From the NCBI GenBank assembly GCA_030603495.1, contig JAUVXR010000005.1, positions 58,732 to 122,731 of the forward strand: 64,000 nt of DNA, read 5' to 3'. How positions within the stretch are numbered: position 1 is the stretch's first letter; each line of letters starts with the position of its first letter. This stretch comes from a bacterium (GTDB lineage: Bacteria; Armatimonadota; Zipacnadia; Zipacnadales; Zipacnadaceae). The position numbers and the translations under genes are program-made. Positions 18,016 through 43,927 of the stretch are shown here, piece by piece. The notes beneath the pieces were generated by a model. The model saw nothing but the letters and a program-made list of their open reading frames with translations. It made no database searches and was not told where the DNA came from.

Positions 18016-18996
18016 GTGTCCAATCGCATAGAAACAGCCTCGGCTGTACGCAAAAAGGCAGGTAAGCCCGCGCGGCGACCGACAAATACGCTCAATGACT
18101 TGACTGGTAGCGAGTGGATCAAGCGGACCAAGTCCTGGTTTGTCTGTGACTCGCGGCGCTATCACCGCAACCGCCCGACCGAGCTGCACCCCGCCCGCTT
18201 CCCTGAAGAGATGGTCGCCGACTTCATCACCTTCTTCACCAAGGCCGGGCAGTGGGTGCTCGACCCATTCTGCGGCAGCGGGGCGGCGCTGGTAGCCTGT
18301 GTGGAGGAGGGCCGCCGGGCTGTAGGCATAGAGCTTGAGCCGCACTACGCCGAAGTGGCCCGCCAGCGGCTGGCCGAGCCGGAGGCCGGTAGCCATGCCC
18401 AGGTCATCACCGGTGACGCCTGTCGCCTGACGGAGCCAGAGCTGTGGCAGGACTGCAGCGCATGCTGTGGTGAGTCTACCGAACCACCGGCCCAGGCCGG
18501 TACGACAGGCGTCTCGCCTGTCGGTCGCGATTGCGCTGCGGCCCCAGAGGATAAGCTGCCCGAGTTCGATTTCATCATCACCTCGCCGCCCTACTGGAAT
18601 ATGCTGCGCACCAGCCGGGGCGGGGTCAACTCCACGCACAAGCAGCGCGCCCAGGCGGGCCTGGATACTCACTACTCCGAGAACGAACACGACCTGGGCA
18701 ATATCAAGGACTATGAGGAGTTCATCGAGGCGCTGGGCAGCGTATTCGGCCAGTGCCGCGAGCTGCTCAAGCCGGACAAGTACATGGTCGTGGTGGTGCA
18801 GAATCTGCGCGTGCCCGACGGGTACGTGGTGCCGCTGGCGTGGGACCTGGCCCGGCGCATCAGCCGCTCGTTCAGCTTCCAGGGCGAGCGCATCTGGTGC
18901 CAGGACTCCAAGCAGCTCGGCATCTGGGGCTACCCCAAGGTCTTCGTCCCCAACTACCACCACCACTACTGCCTGATATTTCGCAATGACAAGTAA
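18016..18996 (+). CDS. Solitary DNA methyltransferase (N4-cytosine/N6-adenine type)
   Basis: 326 residues. Motif I (AdoMet binding) is VLDPFCGSGAAL at about 73, and the catalytic motif IV is IITSPPYWN at about 179, typical of amino-methyltransferases acting on adenine N6 or cytosine N4. The target sequence cannot be predicted. GTG 18016 is chosen because GAGGAGGAGAG ends about ten bases upstream; the frame stays open back into ftsK, but that part looks non-coding. No restriction gene is adjacent, so it is an orphan methyltransferase. Between motifs I and IV an Ala/Gly/Pro-rich loop (about residues 148-165) is encoded by a palindromic repeat inserted in frame. Confidence 0.85.
   Translation: MSNRIETASAVRKKAGKPARRPTNTLNDLTGSEWIKRTKSWFVCDSRRYHRNRPTELHPARFPEEMVADFITFFTKAGQWVLDPFCGSGAALVACVEEGRRAVGIELEPHYAEVARQRLAEPEAGSHAQVITGDACRLTEPELWQDCSACCGESTEPPAQAGTTGVSPVGRDCAAAPEDKLPEFDFIITSPPYWNMLRTSRGGVNSTHKQRAQAGLDTHYSENEHDLGNIKDYEEFIEALGSVFGQCRELLKPDKYMVVVVQNLRVPDGYVVPLAWDLARRISRSFSFQGERIWCQDSKQLGIWGYPKVFVPNYHHHYCLIFRNDK
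18503..18523. repeat. 21-bp palindromic element inside the methyltransferase gene
   Basis: Perfect 9-base arms CGACAGGCG (18503-18511) and CGCCTGTCG (18515-18523) surround a TCT triloop. An almost identical palindrome with the loop in the other orientation (AGA) is at 41958-41978. Here it lies in coding sequence and is read as Thr-Thr-Gly-Val-Ser-Pro-Val without breaking the frame. Confidence 0.8.
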
Positions 18997-40054: not shown

Positions 40055-41845
40055 CTATTCCGCCGGTGGCAGGTCTGTCTTGATGTGCAGGTCGCGAAGC
40101 GCCTCCGGGGGGGCGGCTGAGGGGGCGCCGCTCATCAGGTCCTGCGCCCGCTGGGTCTTGGGGAAGGCGATGACGTCACGAATGGAGCTTTCTCCGCACA
40201 TCAGCATCACCAGCCGGTCAAAGCCCGGCGCGATGCCGCCGTGCGGCGGCGTACCGTACTCGAACGCCCGTAGCAGAAAGCCGAAGCGCTGTTCGGCCTC
40301 ATCTGGACTGATGCCCAGCACGTCAAAGACCTTCTGCTGGATGTCGCGGCGGTGAATTCGGATGCTCCCACTGGCCACCTCCACTCCGTTAATAACCGCA
40401 TCATAGGACTGCGCGCGAACCTTGCCAGGAGCATCGCTCAGCAGGTCAATATCCTCAGGATGGGGCATACAGAAGGGATGATGCTCGGCATCCCAGCGTG
40501 CTTCCTCTTCGTTCCAGGTCACCAGCGGGAATTCGGTGATGAACAGCGGGTTGAAGACCGAGTTATCCAGAAGCCCCTCGCGCCGAGCCATCTCCCGGCG
40601 CAGCCAGTCCAGGCTTTCGGCGACGATCTCCGGCTTGTCGGCGACCATCAAGAGCAAGTCACCGGGCTCGGCCCCGAACCTCTCAACCATCTGCTGGAGC
40701 TGCCCTTCGCTGAAGAACTTGGCTACGGGCGAGTCTATTCCGTCGCCGGTCACGCGCATCCAGACCAGCCCTTGCGCCTTGTGGTCCTTGGCGAAATCGG
40801 TGAGCTGGTCGAGCTGCGCGCGGGGGTACTCCCCGCAGCCCTGCGCGTTGATCCCCTTGACCTCTCCCCCACTCGCGACGGTCTTGCTGAAGACCTTGAA
40901 CTCCACTTCGCCAGCCAGATCCGAGATATCCACGAACTCCATACCGAAGCGCGTATCAGGCTTGTCGGTGCCGTAGCGGGCGATGGCCTCGGTGTAAGTC
41001 ATGCGCGGGAAAGGCAGGGATAGCTCGGCGCCGATGCACTCGTGGAATATCTGTGCGAACAGCCGCTCGGTCAGGTCGAAGATGTCATCCTGCGCCACGA
41101 ATGACATCTCTATGTCAATCTGGGTGTGCTCAGGCTGGCGGTCGGCGCGCAGGTCCTCGTCGCGCAGGCAGCGGGCGAGCTGGTAGTACTTCTCGACACC
41201 CGAGACCATCAGAAGCTGCTTGAGAATCTGCGGCGACTGGGGCAGCGCGTAGAAGTTACCCGGGCTGACGCGGCTGGGCACCAGGTAGTCGCGGGCGCCC
41301 TCCGGCGTAGCCTTGAAGAGAATCGGCGTCTCCACCTCCCAGAAGCCCTCGGCATTGAGAAACGCCCGCGCCGCCTGAGCGGCCTCGTGGCGAATCCGCA
41401 GATTGTGCTGCATCCGCGGGCTGCGCAGGTCAATGTAGCGGTACTTCAGCCGCACCAGCTCTTCGGTGTCGGTCTCATCTACGAACGAAAAGGGCGGCGT
41501 CTTCGCGGGGTTGAGTACTTCAGCAGCCGCGGCGACGACGTCCACGTTGCCCGTGGGCATTTGCGGATTCTCAGTACCCTCCGGCCGGCGCCGGACCTTC
41601 CCCCGTACCGCAATGACATACTCCGGGCGGACGTCCGCAGCCAGCTCATGAGCTTCGGCAGAGGCCTCCGGGTCAAAGACCACCTGCACTATCCCGGCGC
41701 GGTCGCGCAGGTCCACGAATATCAGCCCACCATGGTCGCGGCGGCGGTTGACCCAGCCGTTCAGGGCCACCTCGTCGCCGATATGCTCCTCGCGTAACTC
41801 CCCGCAGTGGGCAGTGCGTTTCATAAAACTGCTGGTCTCCGACAT
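40055..41845 (-). CDS. aspS: Aspartyl-tRNA synthetase
   Basis: 596 residues, class IIb synthetase of the bacterial type. It has an N-terminal OB fold (EVALNGWVNRRRDHGGLIFV, DLRDRAGIVQVVF), motif 2 (RCLRDEDLRADRQPEHTQID), an inserted GAD domain (about 290-420), and motif 3 (GIAPGFDRLVMLM). Whether it also charges tRNA-Asn (non-discriminating) cannot be told here; no asnS or gatCAB is in the window. The gene is flanked on both sides by related palindromes. Confidence 0.96.
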   Translation of the reverse strand: MSETSSFMKRTAHCGELREEHIGDEVALNGWVNRRRDHGGLIFVDLRDRAGIVQVVFDPEASAEAHELAADVRPEYVIAVRGKVRRRPEGTENPQMPTGNVDVVAAAAEVLNPAKTPPFSFVDETDTEELVRLKYRYIDLRSPRMQHNLRIRHEAAQAARAFLNAEGFWEVETPILFKATPEGARDYLVPSRVSPGNFYALPQSPQILKQLLMVSGVEKYYQLARCLRDEDLRADRQPEHTQIDIEMSFVAQDDIFDLTERLFAQIFHECIGAELSLPFPRMTYTEAIARYGTDKPDTRFGMEFVDISDLAGEVEFKVFSKTVASGGEVKGINAQGCGEYPRAQLDQLTDFAKDHKAQGLVWMRVTGDGIDSPVAKFFSEGQLQQMVERFGAEPGDLLLMVADKPEIVAESLDWLRREMARREGLLDNSVFNPLFITEFPLVTWNEEEARWDAEHHPFCMPHPEDIDLLSDAPGKVRAQSYDAVINGVEVASGSIRIHRRDIQQKVFDVLGISPDEAEQRFGFLLRAFEYGTPPHGGIAPGFDRLVMLMCGESSIRDVIAFPKTQRAQDLMSGAPSAAPPEALRDLHIKTDLPPAE

Positions 41846-41957: not shown

Positions 41958-41978
41958 GGACAGGCGAGACGCCTGTCC
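41958..41978. repeat. 21-bp palindromic element at the hisS 3' end
   Basis: GGACAGGCG (41958-41966), loop AGA, CGCCTGTCC (41970-41978): perfect 9-base arms. It matches the palindrome inside the methyltransferase gene at 18503-18523 apart from the outermost base pair and the orientation of the loop. It overlaps the last base of the hisS C-terminal-domain stop codon. Confidence 0.8.
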
Positions 41979-42280
41979 TACTGAACCAATCGGGATATTA
42001 GTTGAGACCGCGGAATCATCTCCTGCTCGCCGCTGTCCATGTCGCGTAGGGTGACAGTTTGCTGCTTCAGCTCATCATCGCCGATGATCACGGCATAACG
42101 GTAGCCTTCGTTGTTGGCAGTCCGCATCTGCGCTTTCATGCTGCGCCGACGGTAGTCTATCTCGGCGACCTCGCCCGCCGCCCGAAGATCCGTTGTTACG
42201 CCTAACCCTGTTTCCCAGGCCTCGTCTCCAAGCGTAATGACGTAGTAACCTTCACGAATAGCACCGTCCTCAGGTTGCAT
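41978..42280 (-). CDS. hisS: HisRS anticodon-binding domain as a separate frame
   Basis: 100 codons starting with ATG at 42280 (MQPEDGAIREGYYVITLGDE). The sequence is clearly the C-terminal anticodon-binding domain of histidyl-tRNA synthetase, with SMKAQMRTANNEGYRYAVII and the closing TVTLRDMDSGEQ. It lies in the +1 frame relative to the catalytic part and overlaps its end by 11 bases. AGGAGG with a six-base spacer precedes the ATG, as if the domain is translated as a separate polypeptide. Either the gene is truly split, or one base is in error or mutated. Confidence 0.8.
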   Translation of the reverse strand: MQPEDGAIREGYYVITLGDEAWETGLGVTTDLRAAGEVAEIDYRRRSMKAQMRTANNEGYRYAVIIGDDELKQQTVTLRDMDSGEQEMIPRSQLISRLVQ

Positions 42281-43238
42281 TGGCTGCCTCCTGGGCGATG
42301 AGCACCCGTTCCAGCCCGATACCGACGCCGACCGCCGGCGTAGGCGGTCCGCCGCATTGCTCGATAAGCTCGTCGTAGCGGCCACCACCGCCGATTGAGT
42401 CCTTGGCACCGAGGCCGGGCGCAACAAACTCAAACGCGGTCTTCGTATAATAGTCAAGTCCGCGCACGATAGTTGGGTCCAGAGTGTAGGGAACATCCAG
42501 GACATCTAGCGTCTCCTGAAGCTGAGCGAAGTGCTCCGCGCAGTCCGGGCAGAGCATATCCCGCAGGACCGGGGCATTCTGCATTATTGCCTGGCACGTT
42601 TCATTCTTGCAGTCCAGCATCCGCAGCGGATTGGTCTCAAAGCGCCGCTGGCATTCGCGGCAAAGCTGCCCTAATTGCGGCGCAACCTGGCTCTTCAGCG
42701 CTTCGACGTACCCCGGCCGACACGCCGGACAGCCCACAGAATTGAGCAGCAGTGTCACCTCTTTGATACCCAGCTTACTGAAAAAGCGTAGCGAGAGCTG
42801 GATGATCTCGGCGTCCACCGCTGGCTCCAGAGAGCCGATCGCCTCGGCACCGCACTGGTGGTGTTGGCGGTAACGGCCGGCCTGGGGCCGATCATAGCGG
42901 AATACCGGGGCGATGTAGTACAGCTTGGTGATTCGCTTGGGGTCCTGACCCTGGAGGTTGTTCTCGAGGTAGGCGCGGATTACCGGCGCAGTCCCCTCCG
43001 CCCGCAGGGTCAGGCTCCGGCCGCCCCGGTCGGTGAAGGTATACATCTCCTTGCCGACGATATCAGTCTCCTCGCCGACTGCTCGCACGAATAGCTCGGT
43101 ATCCTCGAACATCGGCGTGCGGATCTCGTCGTACCGGTACAGTCGGCACAACTCACGGAAGGTCGCCTCCGCCTGCTGCCAGCGGCCCACTTCACTGGGC
43201 AGAATGTCATTGACGCCGCGTGGCCGACGGTAAAGCAT
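42270..43238 (-). CDS. hisS: Histidyl-tRNA synthetase, catalytic part
   Basis: 322 residues ending at a TGA (42272-42270). The start is taken as MLYRRPRGVNDILPSE because GAGGTG precedes it. It holds the complete class II core: motif 2 in APVFRYDRPQAGRYRQHHQCG, LDPTIVRGLDYYTKTAFEFV (HisA), GGGRYDELIEQCGG (HisB) and motif 3 in VGVGIGLERVLI. A Cys-rich insertion (CPACRPGYVEALK, CRECQRR, CPDC) is present. The anticodon-binding domain is missing from this frame and follows in the overlapping frame at 41978-42280. Confidence 0.93.
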   Translation of the reverse strand: MLYRRPRGVNDILPSEVGRWQQAEATFRELCRLYRYDEIRTPMFEDTELFVRAVGEETDIVGKEMYTFTDRGGRSLTLRAEGTAPVIRAYLENNLQGQDPKRITKLYYIAPVFRYDRPQAGRYRQHHQCGAEAIGSLEPAVDAEIIQLSLRFFSKLGIKEVTLLLNSVGCPACRPGYVEALKSQVAPQLGQLCRECQRRFETNPLRMLDCKNETCQAIMQNAPVLRDMLCPDCAEHFAQLQETLDVLDVPYTLDPTIVRGLDYYTKTAFEFVAPGLGAKDSIGGGGRYDELIEQCGGPPTPAVGVGIGLERVLIAQEAANAT

Positions 43239-43315: not shown

Positions 43316-43927
43316 CTACTTCTTATCGTTTTCGTCGTCAAACTCCACCAACTCGCCGCACAGCGCGGCCTCGACAAGCTCGCCGTAGTACGGGTGGCGC
43401 GATACCACGAACACCTGGAATATGGCCGCAAGCGCCAGCAGCTGCAGGCCGCTGACCAGCGGCAGCTTGGCAACGCCCGCCCCCACTGCCAGGACACCCA
43501 TCACCAGCCCCGTACCGGTCAGCATTACCACCGAGCGCTTTACCGCCCTGATGGCCAGGTCGGCGCGCTCCGCCAGTTGCGCGCACTTCTTCGCCAACTT
43601 CACTGGCCTGGATTTTAGGTCATCGCCGCCCACAGCCCGCAATATCCGCTGTCCCACTCGTTCGGCGTCGGTCCACCGCCCATCCAGCGAGAAGCCGACA
43701 AAGAATAGCAGCGCCGATACCGCCAGAACCGCCTGCGACCGGCGTTCCGTCACCAGCCTCTCCTGCTGCTTGACAGTACCGGCGTCGGCATTGGCCTCCG
43801 GACTGGCCACGACCAACATCAGCACGAACATAATACCCAACGGGAACAGGCCCCAGACCACCCAAATATAGCTCAGGCGGCGCCGCAGGGCCAACCATTT
43901 TTCTTCCTGAATTGCACTAAGCTTCAT
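43316..43927 (-). CDS. Unknown membrane protein
   Basis: 203 residues with about four membrane segments (YIWVVWGLFPLGIMFVLMLV, VLAVSALLFFVGFS, VVMLTGTGLVMGVLAVGAGV, LQLLALAAIFQVFVVS). An amphipathic, Lys/Arg-rich segment lies between the second and third. The C-terminus is acidic (VEFDDENDKK). No family recognised. A promoter with TTGACA and TATACT, 18 bases apart, lies upstream. Confidence 0.6.
   Translation of the reverse strand: MKLSAIQEEKWLALRRRLSYIWVVWGLFPLGIMFVLMLVVASPEANADAGTVKQQERLVTERRSQAVLAVSALLFFVGFSLDGRWTDAERVGQRILRAVGGDDLKSRPVKLAKKCAQLAERADLAIRAVKRSVVMLTGTGLVMGVLAVGAGVAKLPLVSGLQLLALAAIFQVFVVSRHPYYGELVEAALCGELVEFDDENDKK

Follow-up and report, generated by a model that had tools for sequence, protein, structure and literature searches.

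In every member of this genus of uncultured bacteria (probably Armatimonadota) in which we detect it, the gene for histidyl-tRNA synthetase (HisRS), hisS, is present as two overlapping reading frames, one for the catalytic core and one for the anticodon-binding domain. The sequence comparisons presented here indicate that this is very probably a genus-specific fission, such that HisRS would be made as two polypeptides, the second translated from an internal Shine-Dalgarno (SD) sequence and probably coupled to translation of the first. It is uncommon for an essential single-copy synthetase to undergo fission, and the steps of the process can rarely be followed. This locus displays side by side the ancestral state, preserved in sister genera, the derived state, found in five species, and what was probably the starting material, the motif CAGGAGG.

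Anatomy and identity of the divided gene

In the window, by which we mean the whole stretch of 64,000 nucleotides that was analysed, hisS is broken on the minus strand, with its catalytic and anticodon-binding halves in separate frames and a stop codon between them. The catalytic half, hisS-N (42270-43238, minus strand, 322 aa), begins with an ATG at 43238, where it reads MLYRRPRGVNDILP..., and ends with a TGA at 42272-42270. The anticodon-binding half, hisS-C (41978-42280, minus strand, 100 aa), extends from an ATG at 42280-42278 to a TAG at 41980-41978 in the +1 frame relative to hisS-N. The 11 nt shared by the two (ATGCAACCTGA, 42270-42280, minus strand) hold both the hisS-C start codon and the hisS-N stop codon, and the internal SD of hisS-C, AGGAGG (42287-42292, minus strand), lies within the final hisS-N codons (CAG GAG G), separated from the ATG by a spacer of six bases. 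The original prediction had described this stop, ATG, SD spacing and overlap, all of which are found in the sequence, and was silent only on the strand, which is minus; its description of both halves as intact and in order also holds, Pfam and NCBIfam matches placing the catalytic core in hisS-N and the anticodon domain in hisS-C.

Synteny around hisS is conserved, with a 203-aa predicted membrane protein upstream (43316-43927, minus strand) and aspS downstream (40055-41845, minus strand). Because aspS is a conserved neighbour, it marks this as the orthologous hisS locus; the membrane protein is conserved 5' of hisS across the family, at 40-77% identity. Directly 3' of the hisS-C stop, at 41958-41978, lies a near-perfect palindrome, GGACAGGCGAGACGCCTGTCC, which has a second copy at 18503-18523 where 0.01 would be expected in the window by chance, and which looks like a dispersed repeat of the REP type.

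The assignment of both halves to HisRS is straightforward. The tRNA-synt_His family (PF13393) covers hisS-N over its full length (E 4e-49) and HGTP_anticodon (PF03129) matches hisS-C (E 6.6e-21). By itself hisS-N reaches 416 bits against the NCBIfam hisS equivalog model TIGR00442, above the curated cut-off of 286.75 bits, and hisS-C matches positions 325-405, the final ~80 positions of the same model. Class II motifs and the HisRS signature RGLDYYTKTAFEF are present in hisS-N, as is every otherwise invariant column of the core in a 24-sequence alignment. A catalytic core of curated HisRS score, with its motifs and signature, is thus found in one half and the HisRS-type C-terminal HGTP_anticodon domain in the other; what is missing, in all five genus members with hisS, is the one-chain architecture, which is usual for HisRS and not a functional requirement. 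When aligned to Staphylococcus aureus HisRS (1qe0), hisS-N covers residues 3-319 and hisS-C residues 332-415, which puts the cut in the linker at the domain boundary, between residues 319 and 332. Both halves are predicted to fold on their own: hisS-N modelled by itself has a mean pLDDT of 84 and HisRS as its best fold match, and hisS-C a mean pLDDT of 90, with HisRS anticodon domains as its best matches.

Conservation of the split and selection on its halves

The same two-piece hisS occurs in each of the five members of the genus for which a gene was detected (G000, G001, G004, G005 and G006, all multi-contig draft assemblies), while two further members, represented by 67-68% complete genomes, gave no hisS match. 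In each of the five, hisS-N is exactly 322 aa long, and the length of the overlap, the six-base spacer and the AGGAGG are alike. Outside the genus the gene is unbroken. The family's three other genera gave seven hisS matches, every one in a single frame, and elsewhere in the order the gene is likewise uninterrupted, contig-end fragments excepted. Each of the 80 nearest named relatives (GTDB genomes), through which other phyla were sampled, has one open hisS frame of at least 397 aa. Across the phylum, hisS was found in 241 of 255 genomes, and no other linker split was seen among the matches listed or by genome-level scores. Genomes with two matches or low scores were opened individually, and those with two matches proved to hold contig-end fragments, second copies, HisRS-like paralogues or cross-hits to other synthetases. 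What emerges is a pair of intact, complementary halves fixed in one clade and surrounded by unbroken outgroups. The conserved single-frame hisS that the original prediction had named as evidence against itself is therefore seen outside the genus only, the members of the genus being all split.

Two other departures from the usual gene were noted in the survey. One draft genome has an unrelated break in hisS at model positions 185-194 (L167, G214:C147:2241-3025), which is probably an error or decay and is distinct from the linker split. Two genomes encode, beside an intact hisS, a second HisRS-like protein of ~550 aa (L172, G258:C10:109250-110518; L171, G259:C418:1541-2812) that matches hisS positions 2-177 and 222-355 and gives no anticodon-domain match.

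Within the genus, pairwise DNA identity is 80-88% for hisS-N and 75-83% for hisS-C. With dS at about 0.50-1.20, dN/dS is 0.05-0.11 for hisS-N and 0.10-0.33 for hisS-C, from which both halves are judged to be under purifying selection. The ratio of amino-acid divergence in hisS-C to that in hisS-N is 1.69, compared with 1.58 +/- 0.23 in intact relatives, a control of six genomes only; we reject relaxed selection on hisS-C because, by this control, the ratio equals that of intact genes. The split is thus older than the diversification of the genus, and selection continues to act on the anticodon domain. The original prediction of a genuine fission is in this way upheld by the shared split, the unbroken outgroups and the constraint on both halves.

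Three simpler accounts of the locus deserve consideration. A single base is enough to break hisS and the assembly is a draft, and the original prediction itself had warned that a single-base error or mutation would look the same. However, the comparison with close relatives that it proposed shows hisS split at the same place in five members of the genus whose DNA is 75-88% identical, and a break common to five such diverged genomes is a split that evolution has maintained, not an error of sequencing. The longest homopolymer at the junction is only 3-4 bases, and this is an essential gene for which the genome holds no replacement: a further check suggested in the original prediction, for another hisS, found none in the 2.67-Mb, 93.5% complete genome, where the remaining matches are weak and belong to related proteins of ThrRS/ProRS size. 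We accordingly give practically no credence to sequencing or assembly error, or to a recent pseudogene. The lack of another hisS also speaks against the conversion of hisS-N into a regulatory subunit like HisZ, the HisRS relative without an anticodon domain that serves ATP phosphoribosyltransferase in histidine biosynthesis. The modelled fold of hisS-N does resemble HisZ, and hisS-N scores 168 bits against the hisZ model, but that score lies below the hisZ cut-off of 272 and compares with 416 bits as hisS. Furthermore, the hisG open reading frames of the genus are 302-328 aa long (328 aa in the same genome as the window), the size of the long form, which by the size rule needs no HisZ. With the score under its cut-off and a hisG of long-form length, we reject HisZ identity, and such a role is extremely improbable. 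It is also conceivable that hisS-N alone is a working HisRS and that hisS-C, although translated, is dispensable or otherwise employed: hisS-N passes the hisS model without hisS-C, and an engineered Escherichia coli HisRS fragment lacking the anticodon domain is reported to be active (Augustine and Francklyn 1997, cited in PMC7373986). Against this, hisS-C is retained in all five genomes at a dS of about 0.5-1.2, under purifying selection that, relative to hisS-N, is no weaker than in intact genes, and we regard a dispensable or redeployed hisS-C as very unlikely.

Proposed initiation of the second cistron

If, as we prefer, hisS has undergone a genuine fission, its junction should be read as a start site for hisS-C. 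The pattern AGGAGG-N6-ATGCAA-NN-TGA is present at the junction in all five genus members and absent elsewhere among the 181 loci compared, which is more than chance would produce. Its AGGAGG, ATG, TGA and 6-nt spacer length are invariant, and the letters of the spacer and the codon before the TGA vary, the latter being ACC, AAC or ACT by species. In G004 a stop codon interrupts the hisS-C frame 45 nt upstream of the ATG, and no other start codon lies between the two, so that this ATG is the sole usual start there. A start with an SD-like core of at least 4 bases can be assigned to 42 of the 53 long open reading frames in the window, an upper bound given that starts were chosen for the best SD, and the full AGGAGG is found in three only. 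The predicted mRNA fold around the junction is nothing special (z -0.58). We reject phase variation and transcriptional slippage as unlikely, there being no homopolymer above 4 bases.

A different interpretation of the same sequence is a programmed +1 frameshift near the TGA, stimulated by the AGGAGG, that would yield a full-length single-chain HisRS as in prfB, where frameshifting likewise uses an SD stimulator. The +1 relation of the frames, the G that follows the TGA, the SD-like sequence upstream and the retention of the break across species all fit such a mechanism. However, signals of the prfB type comprise a codon prone to slippage at the stop and, ~3 nt away, an SD, and neither is found here. 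ACC, AAC and ACT before the TGA would re-pair poorly in the +1 frame; no CTT/CCC/TTT-type site or other slippery codon, and no homopolymer of more than 4 bases, is conserved at the junction among the five genus members; and the AGGAGG lies 11 nt from the pre-stop codon. Conversely, a strong SD, good start spacing and an invariant ATG are needed for initiation and not for frameshifting. Because the elements of initiation are invariant and those of the prfB type missing, the junction sequence favours separate initiation of hisS-C, in line with the earlier judgement that recoding was the less likely explanation, and we consider a programmed frameshift improbable.

Separate initiation at a start that overlaps the preceding stop, with an invariant AGGAGG inside the upstream gene, is the arrangement of a translationally coupled pair, and coupling of hisS-N and hisS-C is likely on this basis. 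A range of -8 to +10 nt has been treated as predictive of termination-reinitiation (PMC10666635). The 11-nt overlap falls just beyond it, so initiation of hisS-C may be SD-driven and not strictly coupled. Internal SDs in overlapping pairs usually, though not always, increase reinitiation (PMC6728339), and subunits of a common complex are over-represented among closely spaced gene pairs (PMC10666635). The hisS halves resemble such termination-reinitiation pairs in their internal SD, their stop/start overlap and their status as would-be subunits of a complex, but overlap by 11 nt where 4 or 1 nt is typical. In a survey of 1106 genomes, conserved frame transitions with a co-located stop and start were attributed to translational coupling or possible fission (PMC3711429).

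The motif CAGGAGG already occupies the corresponding codons in some intact relatives (G007 and G014). It may thus be that the SD of hisS-C is older than the fission and was originally coding sequence of the unbroken gene. Separately, G013 (L036, G013:C293:10404-10418) and G014 (L034, G014:C74:3799-3813), of the sister genus g4, carry in-frame copies of the dispersed palindromic repeat AGGCTTCCAAGCCTG within the HisRS linker, about where hisS splits in the genus of the window. The repeat has 28 copies in G014 and none in G000, and its in-frame linker copies show that the HisRS linker changes freely.

A probable two-polypeptide HisRS and other split synthetases

We propose that, in the ancestor of the genus, hisS was split at the linker that joins the catalytic core to the anticodon-binding domain, and that one mRNA now gives rise to two separate polypeptides, of 322 and ~100 aa. 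Translation of hisS-C would begin at its own ATG by way of the AGGAGG embedded in the final hisS-N codons, most likely by termination-reinitiation or by SD-driven initiation beside the terminating ribosome. The halves would then associate through the interface that the linker normally holds together, and the resulting HisRS, of probable composition (NC)2, would charge tRNA-His. That they bind and act together we infer from their conservation and from the precedents of other split synthetases. On balance we think it likely that the genus has a natural two-polypeptide HisRS: an internal start would supply the anticodon-binding domain as a free subunit, and this would assemble with the catalytic one, possibly as an obligate heterotetramer. 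Such an enzyme offers a natural system in which to ask whether the core and anticodon domain of a class II synthetase can work in trans, a question that bears on the evolution of synthetase modularity. The split hisS is also a clean clade marker, and one that gene callers may label as truncated or frameshifted.

Known bacterial HisRS (TIGR00442; E. coli 1kmm, S. aureus 1qe0) has the same catalytic motifs, anticodon domain and domain order in one chain, whereas in this genus the linker is interrupted and each half has its own cistron. Split synthetases are already known as a kind; the open-access papers searched yielded no naturally split HisRS. The LeuRS of Aquifex aeolicus, encoded by two genes, and the AlaRS of Nanoarchaeota have been cited as split (PMC4975002), and are likewise aminoacyl-tRNA synthetases that occur naturally in two polypeptides; they are different synthetases, and the hisS halves lie next to each other with an 11-nt overlap. 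In the Altiarchaeales, pheT (PheRS-beta) is split and has served as a clade marker (PMC4975002), again a lineage-wide fission that falls at a domain boundary and spares the conserved residues, but an archaeal one, with halves on different contigs, in a synthetase that already has multiple subunits. Finally, an engineered split PheT supports growth of Mycoplasma pneumoniae (PMC12494982): cells can live with a synthetase subunit that is severed at a linker and produced in two parts, although that split, in PheRS, is engineered and uses a separate promoter, in contrast to the divided hisS described here.
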